In this document: piece by piece, positions 850 through 61,742 of the stretch | Position numbering within the stretch: position 1 is the stretch's first letter | Layout: the number at the start of each line of letters is the position of its first letter | IMG/VR virus record: IMGVR_UViG_3300028654_000015 | Span: 1 to 64,000 of that record | Strand: one strand, 5' to 3' | Length of the DNA stretch: 64,000 nt | DNA from: a virus | Translations under genes and position numbers: made by a program | Notes under the pieces: generated by a model | The model's input: the letters and a program-made list of their open reading frames with translations, nothing else | Database searches by the model: none | What the model was told of the DNA's origin: nothing

Positions 850-851
850 TT

Positions 852-1602: not shown

Positions 1603-1620
1603 AAATTCTCATTATATATT

Positions 1621-2366: not shown

Positions 2367-2383
2367 TATATTAAAGTTATTAT

Positions 2384-2620: not shown

Positions 2621-2621
2621 T

Positions 2622-2834: not shown

Positions 2835-2844
2835 TTTATTCCTT

Positions 2845-3033: not shown

Positions 3034-3252
3034 AATTGTTCCTTATGTTTATAAAATATACATATATCATAACACTACTATATTTCCATGACATGACTAC
3101 AATCATGAAACACTAGATAGTGTTATTAATACCTTGATATTATTGATTATAATAGATAAGAAATATTCTTAGAGGATCTACTATGGTTAGTAATTGACGA
3201 TAGTTTTTTGATTTGTTACACTTATACATTGTATATTTTGAATTATTAATGT
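3034..3252. promoter_or_regulatory. Divergent promoter/operator region
   Basis: This 219-base non-coding gap separates a leftward operon from a rightward one. It contains a perfect 16-base palindrome (AACACTA GA TAGTGTT, 3109-3124), with the same AACACTA half-site again at 3071-3077, and TTGACG-N17-TACACT at 3194-3222 facing right. A+T-rich -10-like sequences face left near 3040-3060. The palindrome plus repeated half-site would suit a dimeric regulator that controls both directions (inference). Confidence 0.5.
3194..3222 (+). promoter_or_regulatory. Sigma70-type promoter, rightward
   Basis: TTGACG at 3194-3199, exactly 17 bases, then TACACT at 3217-3222. The predicted start would be about 3229, giving a leader of about 24 bases to ATG 3253. 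The -35 hexamer is nearly consensus. It would drive the second YGNxW gene run by host RNA polymerase. Confidence 0.5.
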
Positions 3253-3564
3253 ATGCCACTACCAATACATGTAGAAGTTATCATCAATGAATTATTAGAT
3301 TCGTTCAGAAAAACAGATATCATCACAGAAAGAACTGCAACAAATTGTATTAAATTATATTTCGAAAAAAGTAAATATCTAGATGATGGAAAATTATTAA
3401 ATAAATTGATGAAACTTATAGAAATAATAGAAAACAAATATCATTTAAAAAATGAAAATTTGCATGTGAGTTTAAATGGACCTTCTGTATTTTACAATAT
3501 GACAAAATATCAAAATTTGTTTGCTAAATCAAACTATCATGAAATAGAACTAAGTATTATATGA
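3253..3564 (+). CDS. Hypothetical protein heading the second small-gene run
   Basis: 103 residues, lysine-rich and helical, without the LK[DE]xLY or GNxW signatures, so not a family member although it heads the second array. Helical stretches cover most of the first 70 residues (LLNKLMKLIEIIENKY). Its stop overlaps the next start as ATGA at 3561, so it is translationally coupled to copy 7. Function unknown. Confidence 0.75.
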   Translation: MPLPIHVEVIINELLDSFRKTDIITERTATNCIKLYFEKSKYLDDGKLLNKLMKLIEIIENKYHLKNENLHVSLNGPSVFYNMTKYQNLFAKSNYHEIELSII

Positions 3565-3818
3565 CCTTTATAGATCAAAATAAATATACTATATGTCTTT
3601 CAATGGACCGAATAATATTTGTTACACATCACAGACCGCCAGCAGAGATGTTCTATAAATCAGACATATCTTTGAGGGATTTATTATATGGTCATAAAAG
3701 AAGATTAAAAACTACAATAGTACCAGATAACTGGAAAGTCATTATAGAAGATACAACAATAACAGTAGAACTAACATTACGAGAATATGTTCAAAGATAT
3801 GGCAATAGATGGATTTAA
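3561..3818 (+). CDS. YGNxW-family small protein, copy 7
   Basis: 85 residues from ATG 3561 (ATGA overlap). Central motif SLRDLLYGHKRR and C-terminal LREYVQRYGNRWI. The invariant Trp codon supplies the ATG of the next gene (agATGGat), giving a 10-base overlap. Function unknown. Confidence 0.85.
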   Translation: MTFIDQNKYTICLSMDRIIFVTHHRPPAEMFYKSDISLRDLLYGHKRRLKTTIVPDNWKVIIEDTTITVELTLREYVQRYGNRWI

Positions 3819-4144
3819 AAAATCTGATGACCTTTTCAAATATAATAAATCACAATCAAACTCTAGAAACAACAACTTTTCGATTAACTAGAAAAAGAGA
3901 CGATTGGATTGTTAAACTAGAATATTATGATGAAGCATTACAAGAATATAAAGAACTATTAGATATTTCAATAAACTCTATAACACTGAAAGATGCTCTG
4001 AAAAAGATTAAATATGTGTTTGAGTTGCCCCAGATACATCCAATGAATTGGATTATGGTATATCCATCTAAATTGGACGAAGAATGTGATGACGAGTTAG
4101 AATTACAATACTATGTAAAAAGATTTGGTAATACCTGGCAATGA
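3809..4144 (+). CDS. YGNxW-family small protein, copy 8
   Basis: 111 residues, the longest family member. The start ATG at 3809 lies inside the Trp codon of copy 7; an in-frame ATG at 3827 is an alternative. The central motif is degenerate (TLKDALKKIKYVF, lacking the usual Tyr) and the C-terminus is LQYYVKRFGNTWQ. The stop overlaps ATG 4141. Function unknown. Confidence 0.8.
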   Translation: MDLKNLMTFSNIINHNQTLETTTFRLTRKRDDWIVKLEYYDEALQEYKELLDISINSITLKDALKKIKYVFELPQIHPMNWIMVYPSKLDEECDDELELQYYVKRFGNTWQ

Positions 4145-4413
4145 ATGTCATATTAATAGCACAACGAAAAACTTCAGTAAATGTATTCATTTGGATACCG
4201 TCAGCCGATCCTGCTCTTGAACCAGAGAAAGGTTATTGGACAAATCTATATACTCTGTTAGATAAAAATATAACATTAAAAGAAGTTCTTTATATGATAT
4301 ATAAAAATCCTGAAGTAAAATTTTTTGATATTACATCCATTACAGTAGGAGATGGACTGTCACAACTTAAATTAAAAGATTATATACAAATATATGGCAA
4401 TTCATGGCGTTAA
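4141..4413 (+). CDS. YGNxW-family small protein, copy 9
   Basis: 90 residues. Central motif TLKEVLYMIYK and C-terminal LKDYIQIYGNSWR. ATG 4141 overlaps the previous TGA. The next gene begins at 4404 within this gene's Trp codon, with the same 10-base overlap as between copies 7 and 8, so the junction itself was probably duplicated. Function unknown. Confidence 0.85.
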   Translation: MNVILIAQRKTSVNVFIWIPSADPALEPEKGYWTNLYTLLDKNITLKEVLYMIYKNPEVKFFDITSITVGDGLSQLKLKDYIQIYGNSWR

Positions 4414-4652
4414 CTAATTACATATACTCAATACATATTAAAGATTCTTATATACTAGTCGATCATATCGTTGATATCTATTATACAACTCTATGGCAAG
4501 AATCAAAATTGGTTAGTCTTAAAGATACCTTGTATAGAATAAAAAATCATAATCTAAATTACTTTAATTGGGAAACAATTTATCTAGTTAAAGACAAGAA
4601 TACATGGAATCTAAAAAGATATATCAAAGAATTCGGAAATACTTGGATATAA
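4404..4652 (+). CDS. YGNxW-family small protein, copy 10
   Basis: 82 residues, the shortest copy. Central motif SLKDTLYRIKNH and C-terminal LKRYIKEFGNTWI. Its ATG is formed across the Trp codon of copy 9. It ends with TAA and is followed by a 51-base gap. Function unknown. Confidence 0.85.
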   Translation: MALTNYIYSIHIKDSYILVDHIVDIYYTTLWQESKLVSLKDTLYRIKNHNLNYFNWETIYLVKDKNTWNLKRYIKEFGNTWI

Positions 4653-4703
4653 TTATACTTATTTGTTGAAAAGTATATATTACTATGATAAAGTATTAAA
4701 TTC

Positions 4704-5012
4704 ATGCGTAAACTCAAAGCAGAAATAGACCCGAAACAAACAAACTTCGAAATTTTTGTGAATACGTGGACTAATATAGGCGAAGTATATGCATCTTATT
4801 GTAACGTGGTACCAATATTTGAATTTGACACATCAGAGTGTGATTTAAAAACAGTTTTATATAATATAAAACAGAAAAATCAAGGATATATTCCTGTAGA
4901 TACCATTGTTTTACATATTGGTAATAATATGAATAGTAATAGATATCGAGTGAAAGATTATATAAAAAATTGGGGAAATATCTGGACCAGATTTCAAACA
5001 TATGGAAAATAA
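4704..5012 (+). CDS. YGNxW-family small protein, copy 11
   Basis: 102 residues. Central motif DLKTVLYNIKQK; the C-terminal signature is the diverged VKDYIKNWGNIW followed by a unique eight-residue tail. A TATGAT -10-like sequence lies at 4684-4689. It overlaps the next gene by 11 bases. The last recognisable member of the array, and the most diverged at its end. Function unknown. Confidence 0.8.
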   Translation: MRKLKAEIDPKQTNFEIFVNTWTNIGEVYASYCNVVPIFEFDTSECDLKTVLYNIKQKNQGYIPVDTIVLHIGNNMNSNRYRVKDYIKNWGNIWTRFQTYGK

Positions 5013-13965: not shown

Positions 13966-15771
13966 ATGGCACTACCATCAAATTCTAGAATAACAGAACT
14001 TGATTTTTTACAAATCAAACAGAACTTAATTACATATCTACAAGGCCAGCAACAATTCAAAGATTATAATTTTTCTGGATCTTCTATTAATATTCTATTA
14101 GATATTCTAGCATTGAATACTGCATATCAAGCATTCTATCTTAACATGGTAGGATCAGAAATGTTCTTAGATTCTGCACAATTAAGAAATAGTGTTGTCT
14201 CTCGTGCTAAACAATTAGGCTATACTACTAGATCAGTTCAATCAGCAAGAGCAACTGTTAATGTTACAATAGATCCTACTCAAGGTCCATTAACATCTAC
14301 TCCTTCTACTATTTTAATACCAACTTCTCAAGAATTTTCAACAGTGGTAGATTCTAAAACTTATTTCTTTACTCCTGTTCAGTCTGTATTAATTACACCT
14401 ACACTTGGTGTATATTCAGCACAAAATATTGAACTAATAGAAGGTCAAAGATTGTCGTTTAGTTGGACTGTCGATAATACATTACCAATCAAACAAAGAT
14501 TTATTATACCAAATGCAAATATTGATACTTCTGTATTAGTAGTAAAAGTACAAGAGTCAGTAACAAATTCTTCTATAGAAATATTCACACTTAATGATGA
14601 TATTAATGTAGCAAGTCCTACTTCTAAAGTTTACTTTCTACAAGAAGCAAACGACGGAGAATATGAAATATATTTTGGTGATGGTAATATTGGAGTATCA
14701 CCTCAAAACGGAAACATTGTAATTGCTGAATATGTAGTTAGCAGTGGTGATGCAGTTCTTGGTGCAACGTCTTTTGCAGCAGTAAATAAATTGGCAGGAT
14801 ATAATTCATATACTATAAACACTGTTGTTGCAGCGGAAAATTATTTTGATCAAGAATCGATAGATTCTATTAAACTATTAGCACCCTTAAATTATGAAGC
14901 ACAAAATAGAGCAGTAACAAAGAGTGACTATGAAACATTAATAAAAAAAGATATACCTAGTATTCAATATGTAAGAGTGTGGGGTGGAGAAGATAACGTA
15001 CCACCTGAATATGGTAAAGTATTTGTTGCTCTAAAACCTAGTACTGGTCTTTCTTTATCTGAAGATCAGAAAGCAGATATAATCAATACTTATATCAAAC
15101 CTAGAAATATTATTTCTATTGAAGTAGATATAGTAGAACCAGATTATCTCTTTATAGAAGTAGATGCAATTGTAAATTTCAATTCAAAGATAACCACATT
15201 AGATTCTTCAGATATTAGTAATTTAGTAACTTCTGCTATCGAATCATTTGCTACTTCAACATTAAATGGGTTTGATAGCAATTTTAGATATTCAAAATTA
15301 ATTCAAGCAATAGATAATGCAGACGAATCTATTGTAGGAAATTTAACTGATATTAAAATAAAATATAGAATATTTCCACCTTTTAATGTGCCCAAAAATT
15401 TCACCATTATTACAAATAATGCATTTAGTACTGGCGACTCATTGAATAATATATCTTCGATCAATTCAAGTGGGTTTTATTATAAAGGAATACTCACTTA
15501 TATAAGTGATGATGGTAGGGGCAATCTTTACTTATATCGTATAGTAAATAATCAAAAAATATTGATAGAATCAAATGTAGGAACCGTAAACTACGTTGCT
15601 GGTAGTATTCAATTAAACGGACTTATTGTTCAAAATATACCAAATAGTTTGGATTATATTGACTTTATTATAACCCCATCAAAAGATGATATTATATCTT
15701 TGCGAGAACAAATTTTATTATTAGATAGTTCTGATATTTCTGTAACTGTAAATGATGTTAATATAAGTTAA
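13966..15771 (+). CDS. gp6: Baseplate wedge protein gp6
   Basis: 601 residues, against 660 in T4. The N-terminal ITELDFLQIKQNLITYLQGQQQFKDYNFSGS with INILLDILALNTAYQAFYLNM and the later DYETLIKKDIPSIQYVRVWGGED are the standard gp6/J-like wedge signatures. Gp6 dimers form the continuous ring of the baseplate inner core and drive the hexagon-to-star change. The stop overlaps the next ATG by one base. Confidence 0.95.
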   Translation: MALPSNSRITELDFLQIKQNLITYLQGQQQFKDYNFSGSSINILLDILALNTAYQAFYLNMVGSEMFLDSAQLRNSVVSRAKQLGYTTRSVQSARATVNVTIDPTQGPLTSTPSTILIPTSQEFSTVVDSKTYFFTPVQSVLITPTLGVYSAQNIELIEGQRLSFSWTVDNTLPIKQRFIIPNANIDTSVLVVKVQESVTNSSIEIFTLNDDINVASPTSKVYFLQEANDGEYEIYFGDGNIGVSPQNGNIVIAEYVVSSGDAVLGATSFAAVNKLAGYNSYTINTVVAAENYFDQESIDSIKLLAPLNYEAQNRAVTKSDYETLIKKDIPSIQYVRVWGGEDNVPPEYGKVFVALKPSTGLSLSEDQKADIINTYIKPRNIISIEVDIVEPDYLFIEVDAIVNFNSKITTLDSSDISNLVTSAIESFATSTLNGFDSNFRYSKLIQAIDNADESIVGNLTDIKIKYRIFPPFNVPKNFTIITNNAFSTGDSLNNISSINSSGFYYKGILTYISDDGRGNLYLYRIVNNQKILIESNVGTVNYVAGSIQLNGLIVQNIPNSLDYIDFIITPSKDDIISLREQILLLDSSDISVTVNDVNIS

Positions 15772-17429
15772 TGGACCAAACAATATTTCCCATAGGAATA
15801 ATTTCTCCTTTCACTCCCATTGGAAGTTGTATATTATTGCCTGGTCCTATCACAAGAAATATACAATCTATAGTAACATCTGAAGCATTTGGATATCCGA
15901 GTGTTGGTAATATTACTTTAACTGGATATTCAATACCTTCACAAGAAGCATTTGGTCCAAAAATTGTAGTTAATGCCCAAGTTAGATTTCCTGTAGTAAG
16001 CCCTGTATTACAAGACGAATTTCCTGCTTTTGTAGCAGAAGATCATCCATTATTTTTGCAATTTATGGGGGCATATTATGAATGGATGGAAAATGCTGGA
16101 CAAGCAATATATCAAACAAAAAATCTATTAAACATACAAGATATAGATACTACAGTTGATGATTTTATTGATTTTTTCAATAGTGAATTCCTAGTAAATT
16201 TTCCAAAGAAAATCACAGCAAACACGCCTTTAGTATTAAAAAATATAAAACAATATTATAGAGCAAGAGGAACCGAAAAATCTTTTGAATTCTTTTTTAA
16301 TGTATTGTTTGGTGAAAAGGTTTCGTTTTATTATCCTAGAACAGATATATTAAAAGTATCAGATGGTAAATGGGTACAACCAAAAACATTAAGAGTATCT
16401 TCTATTCAAGGAGACCCATTTCAACTCTTAGGTAGAAAAATCCACGGGAAAACTAATAATGCTACTGCATTTGTTGAGCAGGTATATAGTGTACAAGAAG
16501 GTTTCATAACAATCTATGAACTATATTTGAATATATCAAGTATTACTGGGGAATTTGACGCGGCAGAAATTTTAGATACATTAGACAATAGCGGAATAGT
16601 TTGTCAAATATCATCTCTCCCTGTTGCGATTACTATTATAAATGGTGGAGCAGGATATCAAGTAGAACAAGAAGTTATTATAATGGGAAGTGGAGATGGT
16701 GCTACAGCAAAAATAACTTCGGTTGATACATTAGGTGCTATTCAAAATGTTGAAATTACAAATTATGGGGCTGCATATGTTGGTGTAACTAATGTGATAT
16801 TTCCTATCTATCCAGGAGTAACTAGTCAAGCACATGGTTCAGTGGTAATTGGTGCTTTAACAAACTATACAGGATATTATCTAAATGAAGATGGACAACT
16901 ATCAACTACAAAGTTTCTGCAAGATGGATATTATTATCAGCAATTTTCCTATGTAGTGCAATTATCTGAATCATTAGTTAGTTATGCTGATGCATTAAAA
17001 AAAGAATTACATCCTGCTGGTTTTATATTCTTTGGTAATTTCTTATCTGAAAGTGAAGTCAATGCACAAGTAAAAATTCCAGAGGGTGCTGAAGAAGATT
17101 TAGAATTATTAGAAGAACCATCAAATATTGTGAAATGTGAATACACAGTAGATAGCGAAACATTGCTATTGGATGCATTTCAACAAGATGAAAATTCATA
17201 TCATCTTGGACCATCATATCGTAGTATTGAAAGAGACAAATTCAAATACAAACCATATCAAGCATATAATGCTGCACCTGATGTGGCTGTAGGAGCCAAT
17301 TCGACATATTGGGACACCTATGCAAACTATCAAATAAAACACTTCAAAGATTATATCGTTGGAGATTTTAAAAATAAGCCATGGAAACAAACAAAAATAC
17401 AACCGGAACCAGGGTTTAGAACCGAGTAG
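15771..17429 (+). CDS. Baseplate wedge-region structural protein (gp7 position)
   Basis: 552 residues, between gp6 and gp8 where T4 has gp7 (1032 residues), but with no visible T4 gp7 similarity. Its core (HPLFLQFMGAYYEWMEN, DIDTTVDDFIDFFNSEFL, YYRARGTEKSFEFFFNVLFGE) is typical of a structural protein in aquatic T4-like phages. Residues about 37-67 hold two EAFG repeats (SEAFG and SIPSQEAFGPKI) shared with the repeat protein at 49426. A GxGYxxE beta module follows. Probably a wedge component linking gp6 and gp8; ends with TAG. Confidence 0.75.
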   Translation: MDQTIFPIGIISPFTPIGSCILLPGPITRNIQSIVTSEAFGYPSVGNITLTGYSIPSQEAFGPKIVVNAQVRFPVVSPVLQDEFPAFVAEDHPLFLQFMGAYYEWMENAGQAIYQTKNLLNIQDIDTTVDDFIDFFNSEFLVNFPKKITANTPLVLKNIKQYYRARGTEKSFEFFFNVLFGEKVSFYYPRTDILKVSDGKWVQPKTLRVSSIQGDPFQLLGRKIHGKTNNATAFVEQVYSVQEGFITIYELYLNISSITGEFDAAEILDTLDNSGIVCQISSLPVAITIINGGAGYQVEQEVIIMGSGDGATAKITSVDTLGAIQNVEITNYGAAYVGVTNVIFPIYPGVTSQAHGSVVIGALTNYTGYYLNEDGQLSTTKFLQDGYYYQQFSYVVQLSESLVSYADALKKELHPAGFIFFGNFLSESEVNAQVKIPEGAEEDLELLEEPSNIVKCEYTVDSETLLLDAFQQDENSYHLGPSYRSIERDKFKYKPYQAYNAAPDVAVGANSTYWDTYANYQIKHFKDYIVGDFKNKPWKQTKIQPEPGFRTE

Positions 17430-43461: not shown

Positions 43462-44022
43462 ATGGCATTTTCAATAGATGATATCAAGGCCAAATTAGAG
43501 TTTGACGGAACACGTCCTTCGCTATTTAATATAGCATTGACATTACCAGATTCTCTTCAATATGGCAATAAGGGACTTTTTAATTCTAAATTAGAATTCC
43601 TATGTCATGCTGCATCAATACCAGTAACAACTGTTGCTGCTATCGAGGTTCCATATTTCGGTCGCAAAATAAAGATTGCAGGAAATAGAACATATCCAGA
43701 ATGGACAATTACAATTTTCAATGATGAAGATTTTGCCCTTCGTGATGCATTTGAAGCGTGGTTGAATGCAATAAATGATGCTCGTGGAAACATTAGAAAT
43801 AGTGGTGTAGATTCTAGACCAGGTACTTATAAAACAAACGCATTAGTAAGAGCATTACCAAAAGATGATGCATCTGAAAGAATCAGACGTTATAAATTCG
43901 AAGGTATGTTTCCAACTGAAGTATCTCCAATTGAATTGAACTGGGCGACAGAAAATGAGATTGCCTCATTCACTGTAAACCTAGCATATGACATTTGGAC
44001 CATTGATACTGCTCAAGAATAA
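43462..44022 (+). CDS. gp19: Tail tube protein gp19
   Basis: 186 residues, T4 gp19 163. Features: RPSLFNIALTLPDSLQYGNK, SIPVTTVAAIEVPYFGRKIKIAGNRTYPEWTITIFNDEDFALRDAFEAWLNAIND, and C-terminal beta strand NWATENEIASFTVNLAYDIW. It builds the inner tube through which DNA passes. GGAG precedes the ATG. A second, diverged gp19-family gene is at 57319. Confidence 0.95.
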   Translation: MAFSIDDIKAKLEFDGTRPSLFNIALTLPDSLQYGNKGLFNSKLEFLCHAASIPVTTVAAIEVPYFGRKIKIAGNRTYPEWTITIFNDEDFALRDAFEAWLNAINDARGNIRNSGVDSRPGTYKTNALVRALPKDDASERIRRYKFEGMFPTEVSPIELNWATENEIASFTVNLAYDIWTIDTAQE

Positions 44023-49425: not shown

Positions 49426-50952
49426 GTGGCATTTCAAAAAAGTGGTACATTGAAATATTGGTCTGATGGACAACCCTTCGTTGGTGTCAGAAGCAAAACT
49501 ATTACATGTCAAGGTGTAAAATATTGGTCAAATGGTCAACCAGGAGAGCCAGTATTTGACGTAGACCAATTCATAACTTGCACTGGTATTGCATCTGCTC
49601 AAGCATTTGGTACCGCATTAATTAATAGATATGTAAATGTTTCTGGTCATAGTATTTCCTCATCTCAAGCATTTGGTAGTGATACTATTGTTTTATATCT
49701 AAATGTTTCTGGTCATAGCATTACAAGTTCAGAAGCATTCGGGACTGCTTTAATTAATAGAAATATATTATGTACTGGTATTGCTTCATCCCAAACATTC
49801 GGGACTGCTTTAATTAATAGAAATATATTATGTACTGGTATTGCTTCATCCCAAGCATTCGGTAGTGATATTATAGTACTATATGAAAAGCCTATAGGTA
49901 TTATTTCTCAAGAAGCATTCGGTACTGCTTTAATTAATAGAAATATATTATGTACTGGTATTGCTTCATCCCAAGCATTCGGTACTGCTTTAGTTACTGA
50001 ATATATAAATGTTTCTGGTCATAGCATTGCAAGTTCAGAAGTATTCGGTACTGCGTTAATTAATAGAAATATTATATGTACGGGTATTGCATCTGCTCAA
50101 GCATTCGGTACTGCTTTAGTTACTGAGTATATAGTACCATCTGGTATTGCATCTGCTCAAGCACTTGGTACCGATTTAATTATTCTATATGAAAAACCAA
50201 CATCTATAGCAAGTGCGGAAGCATTTGGTACTGCTTTAATTGTAGAATATTTAAATGTATCTGGACACAGTATAGCCTCTGGTCAAGCACTTGGTATACC
50301 TTCAGTTTCAGAATCAGTAACAGTTTTTGCAATACCATCTCAAGAAGCATTTGGTACTGCTTTAATTAATAGAAATATTTTTTGTACTTCAATAAATTCA
50401 TCTGAACAGTTTGGTAGTACAACTATAGTTTTATATTTAAAACCAACTACGATAAGTACACAAGAAATAGTATATTCACCAGATGTCTATCAAATTATAC
50501 AAACTGCTGGTATTATATCACAAGAACATATTGGTGATGATTTAATCATTCTATATGAAATACCCAATACAATACCTTCGCAAGAAGCATTTGGTACCTC
50601 TATAATAGTATTATACTTAGTACCAACAACTATATCATCAGAAGAAATTGTATCACCCGCTATTATATTTGCAGAAGATATTACTGATACATCTATACCC
50701 TCTGCTGAAGCATTCGGACTTTCACAACTAAATCTTACTCTATTTGCTACTGATATTATATCATTAGAAGCATTTGAAATTCCAATCATAACAAGAATAT
50801 TGGGTATGACTGGAGTTAGTATTCCAAGTGAAGAAGCATTCGGTCCCAAAATTTGGGTGGTCAATTGTGGCAAACCTGGTGATAAGAGATCACAAATCTA
50901 CTCAAATCGTGGAAGAAACACATTTCCAAAATCTTATAGATATACTACATAA
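49426..50952 (+). CDS. EAFG-repeat virion protein
   Basis: 508 residues with a GTG start at 49426, four bases after the previous stop. After about 45 residues with two KYWS-x-GQP motifs, it consists of 21 units of about 20 residues of the pattern I-x-S-x-[EQ]-A-F-G-x-x-x-[IL]; three units are nearly identical at DNA level. The final unit (SIPSEEAFGPKIW) matches the unit in the 15771-17429 baseplate protein (SIPSQEAFGPKIV). The C-terminus is basic (KRSQIYSNRGRNTFPKSYRY). Probably a fibrous, surface-exposed protein; function unknown. Confidence 0.75.
   Translation: MAFQKSGTLKYWSDGQPFVGVRSKTITCQGVKYWSNGQPGEPVFDVDQFITCTGIASAQAFGTALINRYVNVSGHSISSSQAFGSDTIVLYLNVSGHSITSSEAFGTALINRNILCTGIASSQTFGTALINRNILCTGIASSQAFGSDIIVLYEKPIGIISQEAFGTALINRNILCTGIASSQAFGTALVTEYINVSGHSIASSEVFGTALINRNIICTGIASAQAFGTALVTEYIVPSGIASAQALGTDLIILYEKPTSIASAEAFGTALIVEYLNVSGHSIASGQALGIPSVSESVTVFAIPSQEAFGTALINRNIFCTSINSSEQFGSTTIVLYLKPTTISTQEIVYSPDVYQIIQTAGIISQEHIGDDLIILYEIPNTIPSQEAFGTSIIVLYLVPTTISSEEIVSPAIIFAEDITDTSIPSAEAFGLSQLNLTLFATDIISLEAFEIPIITRILGMTGVSIPSEEAFGPKIWVVNCGKPGDKRSQIYSNRGRNTFPKSYRYTT
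49741..49860 (+). repeat. 60-bp tandem DNA repeat inside the EAFG gene
   Basis: Bases 49741-49800 and 49801-49860 differ at a single position (49795 A versus 49855 G). A third copy at 49921-49980 differs from the second at one base (49923). Period 60 bases = 20 codons. Confidence 0.9.
49921..49980 (+). repeat. Third copy of the 60-bp repeat
   Basis: 59 of 60 bases identical to 49801-49860, one diverged unit apart. Points to recent expansion by slippage or recombination. Confidence 0.85.
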
Positions 50953-53234: not shown

Positions 53235-54542
53235 ATGTATCTTTCTGAAGACCTTCAAAAGAAATGGGAATCGGTGCTAGAGCATCAGGATCTTCCCAAA
53301 TTAAATTCACATAAGAAAGCAGTTCTTTCGGTTCTTCTTGAGAACCAAGAAAGAGAAACTCGCAACGATGGAACAACCCGTTCTGGACTTCTCCAAGAAA
53401 GTTCGCCAGCAAATGCTAGTGCAGGGTTTCCAAATAACAACGCAAATCTAAAAGGTTATGATCCAGTTTTGATCTCTTTGATCAGACGTGCTCTTCCTAA
53501 CCTAATCGCATTTGACGTGTGTGGCGTTCAGCCAATGAAGGCTCCCACGGGATTGATTTTTGCAATGAAGTCACGTTATACCTCACAAGGTGGAAACGAA
53601 GCATTATTCTTCGAAGCAGACAGTTCTTTCTCTGGTAATCTTCAAGATGCTAACTCATCTCCTCTTGATCCATTTGGTCCTCCTACACCAGGTCGTCCTC
53701 TCACCACATCTGATGGTGAAGCATTGGGTGACGGTACTGCAACCTCTACCAAGCCTGCTCAATTCCCAGAAATGGCGTTCAGCATTGACAAGGTAACAGT
53801 TGAAGCAAAGACTCGTGCTCTTAAAGCAGAGTACACAATGGAAATCGCGCAAGATCTTAAAGCAGTACACGGACTTGATGCTGAAGCAGAACTTGCGAAT
53901 ATTCTTTCAGCAGAAATTCTTGCTGAAATCAACCGAGAAATTATCCGTACTATTTACAACAACGCAGTACTTGGTGCACAGAATGATGTTGCAACCCCTG
54001 GTACTTTTGACCTTGATGTAGATTCAAACGGACGTTGGTCAGTTGAAAAGTACAAAGGTTTGATGGTTCAGATCGAAAGAGATGCTAACGCAATTGCGAA
54101 AGCAACTCGTAGAGGTCGTGGTAACTTCCTGATTTGCGATTCTGATACTGCTTCTGCTCTTTCAGTTGCAGGTCTTCTCGACATCGGAAGTGCTCTCAAA
54201 GATAATCTAAATGTTGATGATACTGGTAACACTTTTGTCGGTGTTCTTAACGGACGTTTCAAAGTGTTTATCGATCCATATGCAGTACTTGGTAGCAACT
54301 TCTATGTTTGCGGATTCAAGGGTGCAAATCAATACGATGCTGGTCTCTTTTACTGCCCTTACGTACCTCTTCAGATGGTTCGTGCTGTTGGTGAAGAAAC
54401 TTTCCAACCTAAAATTGGATTCAAGACTCGTTATGGTATCGTAACTAACCCATTTGGTAATGCAAATGGTAACTCAGACGGTTCTCTTGCACAAAGAGCA
54501 AACGTCTATTATCGTGCCGTGAAAGTACTTCATTTACTTTAG
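53235..54542 (+). CDS. gp23: Major capsid protein gp23
   Basis: 435 residues, T4 gp23 521 (including its 65-residue propeptide). RRALPNLIAFDVCGVQPM (84-101) is the universal gp23 signature; MEIAQDLKAVHGLDAEAELANIL (202-224) and MVRAVGEETFQPKIGFKTRYGIVTNPF also match. SGLLQESSPANA gives a candidate gp21 cleavage site after E55. HK97 fold, hexamers of the capsid. Codons such as CTT, CGT and AAC are preferred, unlike neighbouring small genes. Ends with TAG and a strong terminator. No gp24 vertex gene follows. Confidence 0.97.
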   Translation: MYLSEDLQKKWESVLEHQDLPKLNSHKKAVLSVLLENQERETRNDGTTRSGLLQESSPANASAGFPNNNANLKGYDPVLISLIRRALPNLIAFDVCGVQPMKAPTGLIFAMKSRYTSQGGNEALFFEADSSFSGNLQDANSSPLDPFGPPTPGRPLTTSDGEALGDGTATSTKPAQFPEMAFSIDKVTVEAKTRALKAEYTMEIAQDLKAVHGLDAEAELANILSAEILAEINREIIRTIYNNAVLGAQNDVATPGTFDLDVDSNGRWSVEKYKGLMVQIERDANAIAKATRRGRGNFLICDSDTASALSVAGLLDIGSALKDNLNVDDTGNTFVGVLNGRFKVFIDPYAVLGSNFYVCGFKGANQYDAGLFYCPYVPLQMVRAVGEETFQPKIGFKTRYGIVTNPFGNANGNSDGSLAQRANVYYRAVKVLHLL

Positions 54543-54573: not shown

Positions 54574-54601
54574 AAAAATGGGTCCTTCGGGACCCATTTT
54601 T
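54574..54601 (+). terminator. Rho-independent terminator after gp23
   Basis: Stem AAAAATGGGTCC / GGACCCATTTTT with a TTCG tetraloop, 12 bp, ending in T's. It closes the late morphogenesis block. The ATG inside it (54578) is not a gene start. Confidence 0.92.
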
Positions 54602-54611
54602 ATTGGTTCTA

Positions 54612-54640
54612 TTGACGGAAAGAAAAACTTGTGTTATTCT
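54612..54640 (+). promoter_or_regulatory. Sigma70-type promoter before homing endonuclease gene
   Basis: TTGACG (54612-54617), 17 bases, TATTCT (54635-54640). The predicted start is 54647, the ATG itself, as at 5736 and 63241. It gives the endonuclease early expression independent of the late gp23 transcript. Confidence 0.5.
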
Positions 54641-54646
54641 AATAAC

Positions 54647-56002
54647 ATGAGAAAACCCAAACAATATTATAATTCTATCACTAAAAAGATGATAGAAAAT
54701 GATGTGGAAAATAATCTATCTCAATATGAGATTGCCAATAAGTATGGCATTACTAGACAATTTGTTAGAGATTTGTTTCATAAATTTGGAATTACAATAT
54801 CAAATAGAAGAACACAACCACCAATAGATAAAGATATTCTAATAAAAGAAAATCATAAAAATCTATTAACCTTAAAACAAATTTCAGCAAAATATAATAG
54901 AACATATAAATCTATAAAGGATATGTTTAAGAAATATAACATATCACCCAAGAATAATGTAATTCATAAAAATATTATAAAAAGAGAAGAAATATTAAAT
55001 TCGATAGAACTAAATCAATTATATGGAAAATTAACAAAAATAGAAGTACAAAAACAATTAAATATTGGACAAAAATATTTGGATGAAGCACTAAAAGAAA
55101 AAAATATAGAGAGGAAATTCTTTAATAGATCTTCACAAGAAAAAGAACTTGAGGCACATTTGAAAGCAGTAATGCCAAATGAAACTATATTATCAAATGT
55201 TAAAAACATAATTTCAAAAGAAATAGATATATTTGTTCCTAATAAAAATGTTGGTATAGAATTGCATGGGTTATATTGGCATAATCCTATAGTAAAAAAT
55301 ATTGGTAAGAAATATCATTACGATAAAGCCACAGAAGCACACCATAAAGATATACTATTGCTTCAGTTCTTTGAAGACGAATGGATATTAAAGAAAGAAA
55401 TATGCAAATCTATTATATTAACAAATCTTGGAATATACCAAAAATTGTATGCGAGAAAATGTAGTATTAAAATAATCACAAACCAAGAAACGAAAGAATT
55501 TTGTGAACATAACCATCTTCAAGGTCACACAAATGCTAGTGTTTGTCTTGGATTATATTATAATACAACCTTAGTTTCTATAATGTCTTTTGGACGACCA
55601 AGATTTCATAAATCGGCACCAAAAGATCAATGGGAATTATTGCGATTTTGTTCTATATTGAACACCAAAGTTATTGGTGGTGCATCTAAATTATTTTCTT
55701 ATTTTATTAATAATTTTAAACCGAAGCATATATATTCATATTCAGATAGAAGAATATCAAAAGGAGATTTATATACGAAACTAAATTTCAAATTAGAAAA
55801 GATAACAGAACCGAATTATAGTTATATTGTAGGCAAACAAAGATCAAATAGAATGAATTGGCAAAAAAACAAATTGAAAACTAAATTAAAAATATTCGAT
55901 CCAAACTTAACAGAAATCGAAAATATGGTTCTTAACAAGTACTTTCCAATATACGATGCAGGAAATATATTATGGTCATGGTCAAATGAAAATAAATCTT
56001 AA
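54647..56002 (+). CDS. Free-standing homing endonuclease, Vsr-like (EDxHD superfamily)
   Basis: 451 residues from ATG 54647; a longer frame starting at 54578 would begin inside the gp23 terminator. Two helix-turn-helix-like repeats lead (about 22-43 and 72-95), then a nuclease core: KEIDIFVP (191-198), GIELHGLYWH (203-212), AHHKD and FEDEW (242-246), as in Vsr-like homing enzymes (I-Bth0305I/ Hef type). Mobile genes like this spread by cutting allelic sites, commonly next to gp23. It overlaps the RNA ligase gene by 17 bases. Codon use is very A-rich, unlike gp23. Confidence 0.8.
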   Translation: MRKPKQYYNSITKKMIENDVENNLSQYEIANKYGITRQFVRDLFHKFGITISNRRTQPPIDKDILIKENHKNLLTLKQISAKYNRTYKSIKDMFKKYNISPKNNVIHKNIIKREEILNSIELNQLYGKLTKIEVQKQLNIGQKYLDEALKEKNIERKFFNRSSQEKELEAHLKAVMPNETILSNVKNIISKEIDIFVPNKNVGIELHGLYWHNPIVKNIGKKYHYDKATEAHHKDILLLQFFEDEWILKKEICKSIILTNLGIYQKLYARKCSIKIITNQETKEFCEHNHLQGHTNASVCLGLYYNTTLVSIMSFGRPRFHKSAPKDQWELLRFCSILNTKVIGGASKLFSYFINNFKPKHIYSYSDRRISKGDLYTKLNFKLEKITEPNYSYIVGKQRSNRMNWQKNKLKTKLKIFDPNLTEIENMVLNKYFPIYDAGNILWSWSNENKS

Positions 56003-57074
56003 TACACTAGACCCTCTAAACTTTCGAATAACTAAACATATAATTGCTAATGAAGAGTGTACATTTGTTACTCCTCTATCCATAATGGCCGACTGGACTG
56101 CCCACAACTTACATCTAAGATCTTCTATCTGGAATTCACAAGGTGAATTAATTTCTGCGAGTTACCCAAAGTTTTTTAATCTAGAAGAAAAACCAAATAT
56201 TACACCATTTGACGGAAATTTAACTAATTGTTCTATCGTAGACAAAGTAGATGGATCTGCCCTAATATTTTCTAGATACAAGGGGCAACAAATACTTCGC
56301 ACTAGAGGTAATATCGATGCATATAATATGCCCAATGGTGATGATTTAATATATTTTGAACAATATATTTTACCCAAAATTCCAAAAGATGATACACTAA
56401 ATGCTTCTTATATTTTTGAATGGACCTCTCCAAGAAATAGAATTGTGGTAGATTATGGCAATCAACCAAGATTTCAATTGACTAATATAATATCTCATAC
56501 AGACTATTCACTAACATCACAGAATGAATTGGATACATTAGCATTCGAAAGAAAATACGATAGACCAATGAGAATTAGATTCGAATGTAATAGTATAGAA
56601 TTGTTAATTAACGATATTAAAGGATGGAAAAATAGTGAAGGTATTTGTTTATATTACAATAATGATCAAAATATAAGAAAAATCAAATCAACATGGTATT
56701 TAAAATGTCATGCAATGAAATCTCAATGTAATATGAAAACCATGCTAGAATTATATGATGTATATGAAAGACCAGATAAGAAAACATTCCATGAAAGATT
56801 TGATAAAGAGTTTGATTTTGAAATCTCTACTATAGCAAAACCTTTGATTAATCAACTATATGAAGCAGAGACAAAAACCAAAGAATCGAGAAATGAAGTA
56901 ATTCAGTTTACTATAGAAAATTCTAGTTTAAACGATAAAGACTTTGCTATGTTGGTGAATAAGAAATACCAACTAGAAAACTATACAAAGCCATTAGCAT
57001 TCGCATTAAGAAAAAAGAAATCAATAGATCTTATTGTACTAAACATGATGAAACATGAATTATCTACAATATAA
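55986..57074 (+). CDS. rnlA: RNA ligase, Rnl1-like (T4 gp63 family)
   Basis: 362 residues from ATG 55986 (ATG 55956 is an alternative inside the endonuclease gene); T4 Rnl1 is 374. Motif I KVDGS with adenylated Lys87, preceded by FNLEEKP, later a FEWTSPRNRIVVDY motif IIIa/IV region and EGICLYYNN...IKSTWYLK motif V, which supplies the second Lys. It repairs tRNA cut by host anticodon nucleases such as PrrC in T4. A polynucleotide kinase partner is not in this window. Confidence 0.88.
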   Translation: MKINLNTLDPLNFRITKHIIANEECTFVTPLSIMADWTAHNLHLRSSIWNSQGELISASYPKFFNLEEKPNITPFDGNLTNCSIVDKVDGSALIFSRYKGQQILRTRGNIDAYNMPNGDDLIYFEQYILPKIPKDDTLNASYIFEWTSPRNRIVVDYGNQPRFQLTNIISHTDYSLTSQNELDTLAFERKYDRPMRIRFECNSIELLINDIKGWKNSEGICLYYNNDQNIRKIKSTWYLKCHAMKSQCNMKTMLELYDVYERPDKKTFHERFDKEFDFEISTIAKPLINQLYEAETKTKESRNEVIQFTIENSSLNDKDFAMLVNKKYQLENYTKPLAFALRKKKSIDLIVLNMMKHELSTI

Positions 57075-57309
57075 AGAAGATAATAAAAACATAAATTTAC
57101 TAACCAATGAAGTTAAGAGTCTTTTAAAACTTTATAGACCAGATCTAGATTCTGGCCAAATAGTATGGCATTTAATATCTGGACTTATAACTGGTTATAT
57201 AGTCAATGATGAATATATCGTATTTACTAGAATCTCTAAAGATCTAGGGTTTAGTAATGTAGAACACTTAAAGAGAGCCCTACAGCCAAATTTTACTTGG
57301 AAACCATAA
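57055..57309 (+). CDS. Hypothetical protein overlapping the RNA ligase gene
   Basis: 84 residues; ATG 57055 overlaps the RNA ligase end by 20 bases. Helical with VWHLISGLITGYIVNDEYIVFTRISKDLGFSNVEHLKRAL, perhaps a small helix-turn-helix-like fold. A CATAAATA box at 57305-57312 overlaps its stop, but is only seven bases from the next ATG and is doubtful as a promoter. Function unknown. Confidence 0.65.
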   Translation: MNYLQYKEDNKNINLLTNEVKSLLKLYRPDLDSGQIVWHLISGLITGYIVNDEYIVFTRISKDLGFSNVEHLKRALQPNFTWKP

Positions 57310-57318
57310 ATACTATGC

Positions 57319-57873
57319 ATGGTAGATATAAGAGCATTTTCTTCACCTTTAAAGTATCAAGTTTCGATTACAAGATGTCCAAATACGACATTTTTCGTAC
57401 AATCGGTGACTCTGCCCGGTCTCACAATAGGTACTGCAACGGCTGGCACCCCCTTCAGTAAACTATTCTTTCAAGGAGACCACTTAACCTGGGGTACCTT
57501 CGATCTAACCTTCAAATTAGATGCAGAATGGAGTAATTGGTATGAAATTCAAAATTGGATAATAGGTCAAGGGTTTCCACGTAATTTTGGTGAATACCAA
57601 GCATTGAAGTCCGGAACCGATAAAAATCTTGATAATGGACCATTAGTACCGCCTAAAAAACAACAATTGAAAAGAAAAGATGGCGATATTTACTCTCAAA
57701 TTATATTAGAGATATTAACAAGTAAGAACAATCCAATTGTTGAATTCCAATTTAAAGATGCATTTCCAGTTGCGCTAAGTCCCTTGGAACTAGATTCTAC
57801 TAAAGAAGATGTTGAATTTTTAACTGCTTCTGTTACATTTAAGTATACGTACTACACAGTTATACGTCCTTAA
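57319..57873 (+). CDS. Tail tube protein paralogue (gp19 family)
   Basis: 184 residues. SSPLKYQVSITRCPNTTFFVQSVTLPGLTIG at the start and DHLTWGTFDLTFKLDAEWSNWYEIQNWIIGQGFPRNFGEYQ parallel the gp19 pattern (compare gp19 SIPVTTVAAIEVP and WTITIFNDEDF). Overall identity to the gp19 at 43462 is low. It may be a minor tube or tube-initiation component, as T4 gp54 is, or a second tube protein. It lies outside the late block with no ribosome-binding site. Confidence 0.8.
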   Translation: MVDIRAFSSPLKYQVSITRCPNTTFFVQSVTLPGLTIGTATAGTPFSKLFFQGDHLTWGTFDLTFKLDAEWSNWYEIQNWIIGQGFPRNFGEYQALKSGTDKNLDNGPLVPPKKQQLKRKDGDIYSQIILEILTSKNNPIVEFQFKDAFPVALSPLELDSTKEDVEFLTASVTFKYTYYTVIRP

Positions 57874-57886
57874 TAGTAATTTCATT

Positions 57887-58066
57887 ATGAATGAATACGA
57901 ATATAGAGACCAGCATCATCCGTGGTGCAATAAACAAACGGGACCTATTGAAGAATGTCATTTTTGTTCGAAAAAAGGTAAAGACTTCTTTGGAAAATAT
58001 CCATTAGAAGAAGATGGTGATATAGATGTTCACAAATATTTTACTGATGTAATAGAACGTAAATAA
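57887..58066 (+). CDS. 59-residue protein with Cys/His cluster
   Basis: Short ORF ATG 57887 to TAA 58064-58066. The order HHPWC...ECHFC (residues 10-27) gives a Cys/His cluster, presumably a zinc-binding site, followed by an acidic tail. It sits between the tube paralogue and the HExxH protein with a three-base gap to the next gene. Function unknown. Confidence 0.6.
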   Translation: MNEYEYRDQHHPWCNKQTGPIEECHFCSKKGKDFFGKYPLEEDGDIDVHKYFTDVIERK

Positions 58067-58068
58067 CT

Positions 58069-58407
58069 ATGGCAAAGAAAATAATTAGACCTAAGAAAAT
58101 AAAAATCAATGAAAGCGAATACAAGATAGTATCTCGTTCTAAATCTTGGGAACGCAAACATAAAGCACTTGGTCAAATTCATTATGATAAGCATCTCATA
58201 GAACTATTCAAAAATCAACCATCAGATGAACTAATTGATAGCACCATACATGAAATCATGCATGGTATTATCAAAGAACATGAAGTCAAATTAGATGGTA
58301 GAAAAGAAGAAGCATTAGTAACAGGTCTAGCAAATGGGCTTACACAAGTTTTTAGAGACAATCCAAATCTTCTTATTTGGTTCTATAACAAGATTCAAAA
58401 GCCATAA
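58069..58407 (+). CDS. Predicted small metallopeptidase (HExxH)
   Basis: 112 residues, basic N-terminus. HEIMH (61-65) is a zinc metallopeptidase motif, with EEALVTGLANGL (80-91) on the following helix, whose Glu supplies the third ligand, as in small ImmA/SprT-like phage peptidases. Strands before it fit a minimal zincin. It may cut a host or phage regulator; the substrate is unknown. It is in the early small-gene cluster. Confidence 0.7.
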   Translation: MAKKIIRPKKIKINESEYKIVSRSKSWERKHKALGQIHYDKHLIELFKNQPSDELIDSTIHEIMHGIIKEHEVKLDGRKEEALVTGLANGLTQVFRDNPNLLIWFYNKIQKP

Positions 58408-58410
58408 GAT

Positions 58411-58647
58411 ATGAAGGTTCCAAATTGGTTAATGACCATCAAAGAAGGTGATGAGTTAATTTTGTATTTTCCCTATACAGGGGATCTAGTTAATGCTAAA
58501 GTATTAACCAAACAAGATCACATGAATGGATTTTGTGCGAAATATAAAATAAAAGACTTAAATTTTAGTAAATGGTTGTTCTATGCAGATTATGCAAATG
58601 ATGATGCAAATTCTATGAAGTGGTTAGCATATGAAGTCTCAAAATGA
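58411..58647 (+). CDS. Hypothetical protein
   Basis: 78 residues with strands at the start (GDELILYFPYTGDLVNAKVLTKQ, barrel-like) and aromatic C-terminus. Overlaps the next gene by 17 bases; its TGA is within it. Function unknown. Confidence 0.65.
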   Translation: MKVPNWLMTIKEGDELILYFPYTGDLVNAKVLTKQDHMNGFCAKYKIKDLNFSKWLFYADYANDDANSMKWLAYEVSK

Positions 58648-58828
58648 AAAAATGATTGCATGGAATCCTAAAACTGTCATAGGAATGGGAGATAAATGTA
58701 GAGTGCTAGATGGTACATTTACTGGCATTCTTAATGATCGTTTAATAGTTTTTGTTGACCCATATACACTTAGAGATGAAACTATAGAAGAATCTAGAAA
58801 AAGATTGGTAAATCATAATGAAGATTAA
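58631..58828 (+). CDS. Hypothetical small beta-barrel-like protein
   Basis: 65 residues (alternative ATG at 58652). MGDKCRVLDGTFTGILNDRLIVFVDPYTLRDETIEESRKR is a KOW/SH3-like barrel pattern with a C-terminal helix. Function unknown. Two bases separate it from the SLOG gene. Confidence 0.6.
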   Translation: MKSQNEKMIAWNPKTVIGMGDKCRVLDGTFTGILNDRLIVFVDPYTLRDETIEESRKRLVNHNED

Positions 58829-58830
58829 AC

Positions 58831-59211
58831 ATGAAGTTAATAATAGCAGGTTCTAGAAATTATAATAATTATAATTTCATCAAAGAATCAGTTCAAAATA
58901 TAATGAGAGAGTCTTATAATTCTGGTATTGCATTACAGATCGAAAGTATAGTTTCTGGTGGTGCTAATGGTGTTGATAAATTAGGAGAACAGTTTGCTAA
59001 AGAATTCAATATACCATGTATTGTATTTCCTGCTAATTGGTCAAAACATGGTAAAGCGGCAGGACCAATAAGAAACAAAGAAATGGCAGAATTTGCAGAT
59101 ACATTGATAGCATTTCCAGATATGAAAAGTATTGGAACTATTAATATGATTACAACCATGAAAAATTTAAACAAAAAAGTATATGTAGTGGAAATTAAAG
59201 ATGTTAAATGA
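58831..59211 (+). CDS. SLOG-family (YspA-type) nucleotide-binding protein
   Basis: 126 residues. Rossmann-like SLOG features: LIIAGSRNY (3-11) at the first strand, SGGANGVDKLGE (42-53), and the later ADTLIAF strand. These domains sense or process nucleotide-derived ligands and are found in defence-related systems and phages. The gene overlaps the next by 11 bases. A role in sensing or blocking a signalling nucleotide is possible (inference). Confidence 0.75.
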   Translation: MKLIIAGSRNYNNYNFIKESVQNIMRESYNSGIALQIESIVSGGANGVDKLGEQFAKEFNIPCIVFPANWSKHGKAAGPIRNKEMAEFADTLIAFPDMKSIGTINMITTMKNLNKKVYVVEIKDVK

Positions 59212-59365
59212 CCTTGACGAGGAATTGATAAAATATTTGCTTCCAGATATGGAAATAAGAGAATATGCTATAAAACTAGCAAAAGAAGTTCTAGAAGAAA
59301 TACGACTAGATTCTATAAGAATAGAATCAAAGAAAGCATGGCAACAACATGAAAATGGAGATTGA
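59201..59365 (+). CDS. 54-residue helical protein
   Basis: ORF from ATG 59201 (overlaps the SLOG gene) to TGA 59363-59365 (overlaps the next gene by 17 bases). One long charged helix (REYAIKLAKEVLEEIRLDSIRIESKK), weakly similar to the helix in the next gene (SDEILAEINREVIRTI), and a final ENGD, echoing ENGE in that gene. Function unknown. Confidence 0.6.
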   Translation: MLNDLDEELIKYLLPDMEIREYAIKLAKEVLEEIRLDSIRIESKKAWQQHENGD

Positions 59366-59570
59366 ATCATATCAAGAACTACAAGCAATTCATGGATTAG
59401 ATGCACAAAATGAATTGGTGAAAATTCTTTCGGATGAAATTCTTGCAGAAATTAATAGAGAAGTAATTAGAACAATATATAATGAAGAAAGACATGAATA
59501 CTATTATGAATTTCAAAAACAAAAACGTAATGATATAATAATATGGTGTGATCATGAGAATGGAGAATGA
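59349..59570 (+). CDS. Free-standing fragment of the major capsid protein
   Basis: 73 residues. Residues 9-45 (QELQAIHGLDAQ...INREVIRTIYN) match gp23 residues 206-242 with 28 of 37 identical. The matching gp23 stretch is the conserved HGLDAxxEL segment of the capsid fold. The DNA has diverged strongly at synonymous sites, so the peptide has been kept by selection rather than copied recently. The rest is unrelated. It cannot form a capsid protein; a decoy, competitor or regulator of assembly is plausible (inference). Confidence 0.75.
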   Translation: MKMEIESYQELQAIHGLDAQNELVKILSDEILAEINREVIRTIYNEERHEYYYEFQKQKRNDIIIWCDHENGE

Positions 59571-59758
59571 GAATCCATAAAATTATAGACTATATAATGA
59601 GAAGGGCAAATGAAGCATCTTGTTTGGGACAAGAATTTAATAAAGATTTATTATTAGATATAGAATTGAGTAGATTTGATGAATATGCAAATGAATTATT
59701 AAATATATTATATGAAGAAATATCATACAATTGGTATACAAATCATATTGGAGAATAA
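59567..59758 (+). CDS. Hypothetical small acidic protein
   Basis: 63 residues, ATG 59567 overlaps the preceding TGA (ATGA). Helical, acidic (LLLDIELSRFDEYANELLNILYEEISYNW). No match to gp23 is seen. Ends just before uvsY. Function unknown. Confidence 0.6.
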   Translation: MRIHKIIDYIMRRANEASCLGQEFNKDLLLDIELSRFDEYANELLNILYEEISYNWYTNHIGE

Positions 59759-59760
59759 TA

Positions 59761-60198
59761 ATGGCTACCTTAGAAGAACTAGAAAATGAATGGTCTAAAG
59801 ATTGTAAGATAGATAGAACAAATCTAGATGGCGAATCTTTAAAAATACCGGAACTTCACAATAAGTACTACAAACTCTATATAAGAGAACGTGTACAATT
59901 CAAACAAGATGAATTCACTTTAGATGAATTCCTAAAAACAAAAACTCAGTATTACCAAGGTAAACTAGATAAACAAACTCTAGATGAAAATAAGTGGGAA
60001 CCATTTGATTTGATACTAATAAAACAAGATTTAGATCTATATCTAGATGCAGATAAAGATATAATCAAAAGAAAATTGAAAATGCATCTTCAAAAAGAAA
60101 AAGTAGAATTTCTTGAGAGTATAATCAAAACAATCAATAATAGATCCTTTATTATTCGTGATGCTCTCGAATTTATTAAGTTTTCTAGTGGCAAATAA
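59761..60198 (+). CDS. uvsY: Recombination mediator UvsY
   Basis: 145 residues from ATG 59761, which has GGAGAA upstream; an in-frame TTG at 59731 is ignored. T4 UvsY is 137. The N-terminal LEELENEWSKDCKIDRTNL, the YYQGKLDKQ stretch and the C-terminal INNRSFIIRDALEFIKFSSGK match the UvsY layout. It loads UvsX recombinase onto gp32-covered single-stranded DNA for recombination-dependent replication. Next to uvsW. Confidence 0.85.
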   Translation: MATLEELENEWSKDCKIDRTNLDGESLKIPELHNKYYKLYIRERVQFKQDEFTLDEFLKTKTQYYQGKLDKQTLDENKWEPFDLILIKQDLDLYLDADKDIIKRKLKMHLQKEKVEFLESIIKTINNRSFIIRDALEFIKFSSGK

Positions 60199-60242
60199 CA
60201 TCATTTCCAATCTTCTAAATATTGTTGTAGATATATTACAAC

Positions 60243-61742
60243 ATGAAAGAAGAATTGACAGAAGAAATAATTTGGATTCGTAAAAAGAACGAAGTTTATC
60301 TACAGGTAGATGCATCTCCTGGTATTCTTAGAGAGATGCAAGATCATTTCAAATTTAGAGTACCTGGATATCAATTTCATCCAGCATATAAACGTAGACA
60401 ATGGGATGGGTTTCTACGTATCTTTAATACATATGATGGTACTTTATTTCTTGGTTTGATAAATCGACTAGAAGAGTTTTGTAAAACTAGAAATTATAAA
60501 GTAATAATTGAAAAAGAAGTTACAGATAGAGTACTAGCATTTACTCAAGAAGATGCAAAAAACTATTCTTTAACTTTAAAGTTGCCATTCGAACTAAGAG
60601 AAGATCAATTAAAAATCATACATCATTGTATAGTAAATAATAGAGCATTAATTTTATCACCAACTTCATCTGGTAAATCAGCATTAATATATTCACTTGC
60701 AAGATGGTATCATGAAAAAACATTAATTATAGTACCAACATTAGATCTAATATCTCAGACATATGACATGTTTAAAACTTATTCAAAAGATAATAAATTT
60801 GATGTAGAAAAAAATATGCATACTATTTTCTCTGGTCAAGATAAAGATAGTAAAAAACAAATTTTCTTAAGTACCTGGCAAAGTATTCATAAAATGTCAA
60901 AGAAATGGTTTGACCAATTCAATCTTGTTATATTCGATGAAGCACATACAGCACAAGCAAATTGTATTAAAGATATAATGATAAAATTAGAAAATTGCAA
61001 ATATAGATTTGGTCTTACTGGTACATTAGATGGTAGTAAATGTCATGAAATGGTATTATCTGGTTTATTTGGTGAAATATTCTCTGGTTCTACTTCTAGT
61101 GAATTAATGAAGAAAAAGGTTATATCAGATCTACAAATAAATTGTTTAATACTTGAATATTCAGAAGCAGAAAGAAAACAAGTTAAAGAATTAAAATATC
61201 ATGAAGAAATAAAGTTTTTAACACTACATTCAAAAAGAAATAAGTTTATAAAAAACTTAGCAATAAGTATGAAAAATAATACTCTCGTTCTTTTTCAATA
61301 TATCGAACATGGTAAGACATTATTTGAATTAATAAAAGAAGAATTAAAGAAAACAGACCCAAAAAGAAGAGTTTTCTTCATTGCAGGTGAAATTGAAAAA
61401 GATGTTAGAGAAAAGGTAAGACTTCTAACAGAAAAAGAAAAGAATGCTATTATAGTTGCAAGTGTTGCAATATACAGTACTGGTATTAATATTAGAAATT
61501 TAAAAACTCTTATATTTGCATCTCCTACAAAATCTCGAATTAGAACACTACAATCTATAGGTAGAACGCTAAGAATAGGGGATGAATCATCAGAAGCAAT
61601 TATGTACGATATAGTAGATGATCTTACATATAAATCTCACCAAAATTTTGCAACAACTCATTTCTTAGCAAGAGCAAAAATATATAAAAGTGAGAAATAT
61701 CCATTCAAAATCAAAAAAATAATACTAACAAAAGACAAATAA
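60243..61742 (+). CDS. uvsW: Recombination helicase UvsW
   Basis: 499 residues, T4 UvsW 503. N-terminal domain EMQDHFKFRVPGYQFHPAYKRRQWDGFLRIFN is diagnostic; Walker A PTSSGKS (140-146); DEAH (232-235); LTGTL motif III; and motif VI QSIGRTLRIG. A superfamily-2 helicase that remodels forks and branches and removes R-loops. TATATT at 60232-60237 lies six bases before the ATG, so its start may also be leaderless. Confidence 0.95.
   Translation: MKEELTEEIIWIRKKNEVYLQVDASPGILREMQDHFKFRVPGYQFHPAYKRRQWDGFLRIFNTYDGTLFLGLINRLEEFCKTRNYKVIIEKEVTDRVLAFTQEDAKNYSLTLKLPFELREDQLKIIHHCIVNNRALILSPTSSGKSALIYSLARWYHEKTLIIVPTLDLISQTYDMFKTYSKDNKFDVEKNMHTIFSGQDKDSKKQIFLSTWQSIHKMSKKWFDQFNLVIFDEAHTAQANCIKDIMIKLENCKYRFGLTGTLDGSKCHEMVLSGLFGEIFSGSTSSELMKKKVISDLQINCLILEYSEAERKQVKELKYHEEIKFLTLHSKRNKFIKNLAISMKNNTLVLFQYIEHGKTLFELIKEELKKTDPKRRVFFIAGEIEKDVREKVRLLTEKEKNAIIVASVAIYSTGINIRNLKTLIFASPTKSRIRTLQSIGRTLRIGDESSEAIMYDIVDDLTYKSHQNFATTHFLARAKIYKSEKYPFKIKKIILTKDK

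Follow-up and report, generated by a model that had tools for sequence, protein, structure and literature searches.

The DNA analysed here (the window) is a stretch of 64,000 nucleotides belonging to a virus record of 78,367 bp. It contains an intact gene for the major capsid protein (MCP, gp23) of 435 aa at 53235..54542 on the plus strand, with the late motif TATAAATA located 41 nt upstream. Directly after it follows a gene that matches homing-endonuclease and Mom-like families (54578-56002; Pfam Mom; PHROG 3339 with an E value of 5e-96) and might give rise to breaks and copying around the MCP gene. Further downstream lies a tight run of plus-strand genes (57319..60198) with gaps of -17 to +13 nt. 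This run comprises a tail-tube-like gene, small ORFs, a HExxH protein, a SLOG protein, three tiny genes named orfA, orfB and orfC, and uvsY. A single ATAAATAC is found 13 nt ahead of 57319. The late motif is absent from 56800-60300. The tail-tube-like gene (57319-57873, PHROG 45) encodes a second protein of this kind besides the tail tube at 43462-44022. A tblastx match of this gene to the MCP gene (57472-57534) was dismissed as chance, the MCP profile being blind to it. The SLOG protein within the small genes (58831-59211) is YspA/DprA-like.

Two other features of the window were noticed. About ten tandem small genes at 108-5012 form one family of strongly expanded paralogues (80-111 aa) with the motifs LKDxLY and C-terminal [YH][GN]N-W (IRxYGNxW). 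The regions 50806-50952 and 15771-17429 have the motif IPSxEAFGPKI in common (80% over 20 aa); no long gene is present there on the plus strand.

A free-standing gene with a segment of the major capsid protein

orfB (59349..59570, plus strand) encodes 73 aa with the translation MKMEIESYQELQAIHGLDAQNELVKILSDEILAEINREVIRTIYNEERHEYYYEFQKQKRNDIIIWCDHENGE. It starts with the ATG at 59349 and ends with a TGA whose last base is 59570. It overlaps the upstream orfA by 17 nt and the downstream orfC by 4 nt (ATGA). Residues 5-45 (59361..59483) align ungapped with residues 202-242 of the phage's own MCP (53838..53960, plus strand), with 29 of 41 residues identical (71%). The match has an E value of 5e-16 among all ORFs of the window and of 1.4e-15 in the 78-kb proteome. 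The Pfam family Gp23 (PF07068) recognizes orfB with 50 bits at a cut-off of 24.4, and PHROG 138 with an E value of 1e-13. The original prediction of a free-standing gene with a piece of the MCP, including its start, stop and overlaps, is thus confirmed, as are the 28 of 37 identities it gave for residues 9-45. Its placement at gp23 206-242 holds in the numbering of the own MCP; in T4 gp23 the segment lies at 271-310 (272-312 as counterpart of residues 5-45).

orfB covers 42 of the 376 positions of the Pfam Gp23 model and is no full-length protein with the HK97-type fold. Because of this small coverage and its length of 73 aa, orfB is, judged by its sequence, a carrier of an MCP piece and not an MCP. 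Given the local composition, the probability that 73 codons stay open by chance is about 3.5e-4. The orfB frame has the highest codon-usage coding score of the six frames, on a level with the neighbouring genes. The coding signal of the non-MCP tail, which has 25 codons only, is low (z 0.8). An assembly artefact or a chance resemblance was also considered, since the locus is present on a single metagenomic contig and a second copy of it was not found. An E value of about 1e-15 speaks against chance. The MCP-like stretch is flanked on either side by non-MCP sequence and about one third of its bases differ from the own MCP; these two observations argue against a mis-joined read, so that this explanation is hardly credible.

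A second, probable piece of the capsid protein in the same gene run

A gene of 65 aa at 58631..58828 (plus strand) shows similarity to a different part of the MCP. Its residues 29-47 (TFTGILNDRLIVFVDPYTL) match residues 333-351 of the own MCP (TFVGVLNGRFKVFIDPYAV) with 11 of 19 identities, and over the first 17 codons 36 of 51 nt are identical. None of 5000 shuffles gave an equally good match. The E value is 4e-4 in the genome self-comparison and 0.0015 with the MCP profile in all frames of the record. The sole Pfam match is Gp23 with an E value of 0.24, which is under the cut-off. By eye the sequence is KOW-like, although Pfam gives no match to a KOW domain. It probably holds a second, different MCP piece; the link is called only probable because of the KOW-like appearance and the Pfam E value.

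When the MCP profile was run against six frames of the whole 78-kb record, only the MCP gene, orfB and this ORF scored. The SLOG gene stands between both pieces and no more MCP traces are present in the six frames. A single broken second copy of the MCP gene was rejected as their source because the pieces occur in reversed order, with 333-351 upstream of 202-242. The neighbours of orfB are unsupported as further MCP pieces, and orfA has no significant MCP match. orfA (59201..59365, plus strand, 54 aa, ending in WQQHENGD) is possibly a diverged tandem relative of orfB, but their similarity is weak (45 of 3000 and 5 of 2000 shuffles). orfC (59567..59758, plus strand, 63 aa, ending in WYTNHIGE) resembles orfA (EYAxxLxxxxxEEI; 13 of 3000 shuffles), and in the shuffle test no similarity to orfB was found.

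Occurrence in other phages

A tblastn search with orfB in 50,697 phage records gave matches in 2,439 records at 2,441 places, so at this sensitivity at most two records have a second place. In about 150 whole records (many of them fragments, some without an MCP) one further free-standing copy was identified on NVVV01000063.1, a T4-like contig of 156 kb that was binned with a Robiginitomaculum MAG. This copy (L189:5300-5500) has 52 aa (MKSDIGEYSVEAAQDLEAQYGLDIEAELLKMLQEEIAIEMVKEIKEGRSGKL) and a GTG start that overlaps the nrdA stop. It has an E value of 1.8e-8 among 30,223 small ORFs and a Pfam Gp23 score of 38.5 bits, above the cut-off. That both copies cover the same MCP segment is partly due to the use of orfB as query. 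When the whole MCP was used as query in 48 records, no further small carrier except Aeh1p187 turned up, apart from gp24 genes. The gene KVP40 36456 was discarded as a free-standing piece, since it is an annotated gp24 gene.

orfB can be described as a free-standing P-domain-helix gene, that is, a tiny ORF that has the counterpart of MCP 202-242 and hardly any of the remaining MCP. A comparison of 42,258 small ORFs from the loci examined found such genes only in orfB and the NVVV01000063.1 copy. The two are not grouped in the tree and their flanks and places differ. No relatives reached via uvsY, uvsW, MCP and nrdA contained a free-standing copy except NVVV01000063.1. Searches for orthologues of orfB, orfA, the SLOG protein and the NVVV01000063.1 copy found none, and the tail of orfB alone had no match in the phage records. 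Free-standing MCP pieces are otherwise very rare. The search for isolated copies in T4-like genomes, which had been suggested together with the prediction, yielded one further copy and no orthologue of orfB. The statement that no gene of this kind had been described was nearly right, the exceptions being the NVVV01000063.1 copy and the family PHROG 12830, which carries a different segment.

Codon usage, selection and origin of orfB

At the DNA level, orfB and the MCP segment are 67% identical, with 73, 88 and 41% identity at codon positions 1, 2 and 3. For 13 of the 29 identical residues the codon is identical as well, in agreement with the earlier remark that the codons are quite different. 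To analyze selection, a branch-specific codon model was applied to 39 fragments on a codon tree. It gives the orfB branch an omega of 0.075, or 0.036 with AT-rich equilibrium frequencies. An omega of 1 on this branch is rejected (2dlnL 19.4, and 32.1 with AT-rich frequencies). Wholly neutral evolution of orfB since its divergence from the MCP is therefore rejected, and the claim of selection as a protein stands to this extent (omega 0.04-0.08). The step from the codons alone to a selected free peptide does not hold: different codons by themselves are no proof of it, because the data fit equally well if a long evolution within an unsampled MCP preceded a brief neutral phase. Such a two-phase model (MCP-like, then neutral) matches the fit of a single omega; within two log units it leaves room for about 0.4-0.7 neutral substitutions per codon.

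The MCP phase in this model must span about 7-12 units, compared with 1-2 for three MCP tips measured alike. The GC3 of the orfB segment is 0.068, the lowest of 64 fragments; the sampled MCPs have a minimum of 0.136 and a median of 0.34. Ordinary genes of this genome have similarly low values (uvsW 0.13, whole orfB 0.12). The third positions of orfB have taken over the AT-rich usage of the genome (codon amelioration). Because of the length of the required MCP phase and a GC3 below that of all sampled MCPs, we argue for a long life of orfB as a separate gene, while a late capture from an unsampled MCP is conceivable. In the best tree, orfB is placed beside Pelagibacter phage HTVC008M, which is also its nearest DNA match (78% over 107 nt). 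An origin from the own MCP was not rejected by the AU test (p = 0.145).

The late capture leads to an explanation of orfB as recombination debris, in which a piece recently taken from an unsampled AT-rich MCP is open and translated by chance and has no function. It would agree with the equal fit of the two-phase model, the rare and scattered occurrence of free-standing pieces and the lack of orthologues, and the homing-endonuclease-like gene adjacent to the MCP gene could promote such events. However, it requires both the long MCP phase and an MCP of lower GC3 than any sampled, its fully neutral form is rejected, and accident alone would hardly explain that the run holds a further, probable MCP piece and that another phage carries the orfB segment. 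We consider debris improbable.

Probably orfB is a true, small gene of the phage that arose by recombination from a piece of an MCP gene. The piece, consisting of a short acidic P-domain helix and the following long helix, would have been copied to a site among consecutive tiny accessory genes, where it has its own start and stop. The protein would then have been maintained, whereas codon choice moved towards the AT-rich pattern of the genome.

Structural position and possible function

Tyr8 of orfB is located at the counterpart of T4 Ala275. In T4, Ala275 is a head-length residue in a P-domain helix which contacts the adjacent capsomer, and the exchange A275T in gp23 leads to about 80% isometric heads (PMC9958956). 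When the own MCP is modelled, the segment forms two helices, 202-212 and 216-243; this AlphaFold model is poor (mean pLDDT 47) and served just for rough helix limits. The long helix presumably corresponds to the HK97 spine helix. The segment has 24 near-invariant MCP positions, and orfB keeps 20 of them; the four changed ones include the Ala275 equivalent.

Since MCP positions are retained and the segment lies where capsomers touch each other, a capsid-binding peptide is our best single guess for the function. The expressed peptide would still bind the contacts of the capsid element, most likely neighbouring gp23 subunits, and may thereby modulate head assembly or interfere with it in mixed infections. 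The NVVV01000063.1 copy of the same segment is in line with this, as is the MCP piece probably present in ORF 58631-58828 near orfB. On the other hand, no orthologue of orfB was found in the searches, the late capture fits the codon data equally, the late promoter motif is absent directly upstream of orfB, the non-MCP tail has little coding signal, and the Ala275 equivalent itself is among the changed positions. The whole statement, a small gene captured from an MCP that acts as a capsid-binding modulator, is thus a tentative one, somewhat short of an even chance. From the sequence evidence, this reading seems narrowly favoured over a decoy, debris or an exapted helix.

As an exapted helix, the MCP piece would have been adopted, as a ready amphipathic helix, by a small accessory protein with a role unrelated to capsids. 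At seven sites orfB has residues that are never seen in MCPs, and modelled alone it is one helix (from the single sequence, confident in one of five models). The flanking genes orfA and orfC are short as well; the similarities of orfA to orfB and to orfC are weakly above chance. The number of near-invariant positions kept goes beyond the needs of a generic helix, and we regard an exapted helix as rather unlikely.

orfB could also be a decoy or antagonist of host capsid-sensing defence, which mimics a part of gp23 and occupies a sensor without triggering it. Several bacterial defences recognize the capsid protein, and it is a known trigger of CapRel (PMC9712102) and, via its Gol region, of Lit (PMC3014915). 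The conserved family PHROG 12830 carries a Gol-like MCP segment. As stated in the original prediction, the Lit case involves another segment of gp23 than that of orfB, and no defence or counter-defence gene was identified adjoining orfB. We know of no sensor of the gp23 segment present in orfB. A decoy function is accordingly given a low probability, about that of the exapted helix.

A broader reading, which we consider rather doubtful, is that T4-like phages repeatedly make capsid-mimic small genes from short MCP pieces. The pieces would be the P-domain helices, the Gol region and the stretch near MCP 333-351; their targets would be capsid-sensing immunity or the head assembly of competing phages. 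The new elements are the probable second MCP piece, the NVVV01000063.1 copy and PHROG 12830 with a third MCP segment. Phages seem to re-use bits of the capsid protein now and then as stand-alone small proteins. The size of the T4 head is set by contacts including the element found in orfB, and a gene that supplies this element as a free peptide would make self-mimicry by phages directly testable. Even if the function of orfB should be mundane, it documents a way in which in-frame pieces of core genes give rise to small genes in phages.

Comparison with known systems

Residues 5-45 of orfB align inside the Gp23 MCP families (PF07068, PHROG 138). In contrast to these proteins, orfB has only about 41 of 435 residues, an incomplete HK97 fold and its own gene with its own flanks. 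The capsid vertex protein gp24 also has a homologous segment (1yue, 5vf3), but it is a full-length paralogue of gp23, and orfB is far nearer to gp23 (E 7e-6 versus 0.8). The NVVV01000063.1 copy shares with orfB the short and the long helix in a separate tiny gene; it differs in phage, place and flanks, has 43% identity and is probably not an orthologue.

PHROG 12830 comprises small proteins of Straboviridae of about 128-141 aa, like Aeh1p187 (L207:899-1321, NC_005260), phiAS5 ORF0311 and Merlin284, with further members at the loci L210, L211, L212 and L213. In Aeh1 and Vibrio phage D479 these genes are located near tRNA genes. Their N-terminal domain is conserved, and at the C-terminus they have a stretch (for example PKLIAEEICGVQPMTG) that corresponds to gp23 PQLIAFDICGVQPMTS; we take this to be the Gol region. 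A Cronobacter relative is without this stretch. In the records the family is annotated as 'major head protein', and such labels on tiny ORFs hide chimeras. Like orfB, its members are small stand-alone genes of T4-like phages with a short MCP segment. Unlike orfB, they carry another segment (LIAEEICGVQPMT) fused to an N-terminal domain and are conserved across genera; beyond carrying an MCP segment the sequences are unrelated, and orfB matches PHROG 138 and not 12830. By sequence comparison, there are stand-alone proteins that carry MCP segments, and in this one family they are conserved.

In T4, Gol is likewise a short stretch of gp23 that is active in its own right; it binds EF-Tu and enables Lit (PMC3014915). 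It lies inside gp23 itself and at another segment, whereas orfB would be a candidate free peptide. A stand-alone Gol-like peptide, as in PHROG 12830, would be a testable ligand of Lit or EF-Tu.
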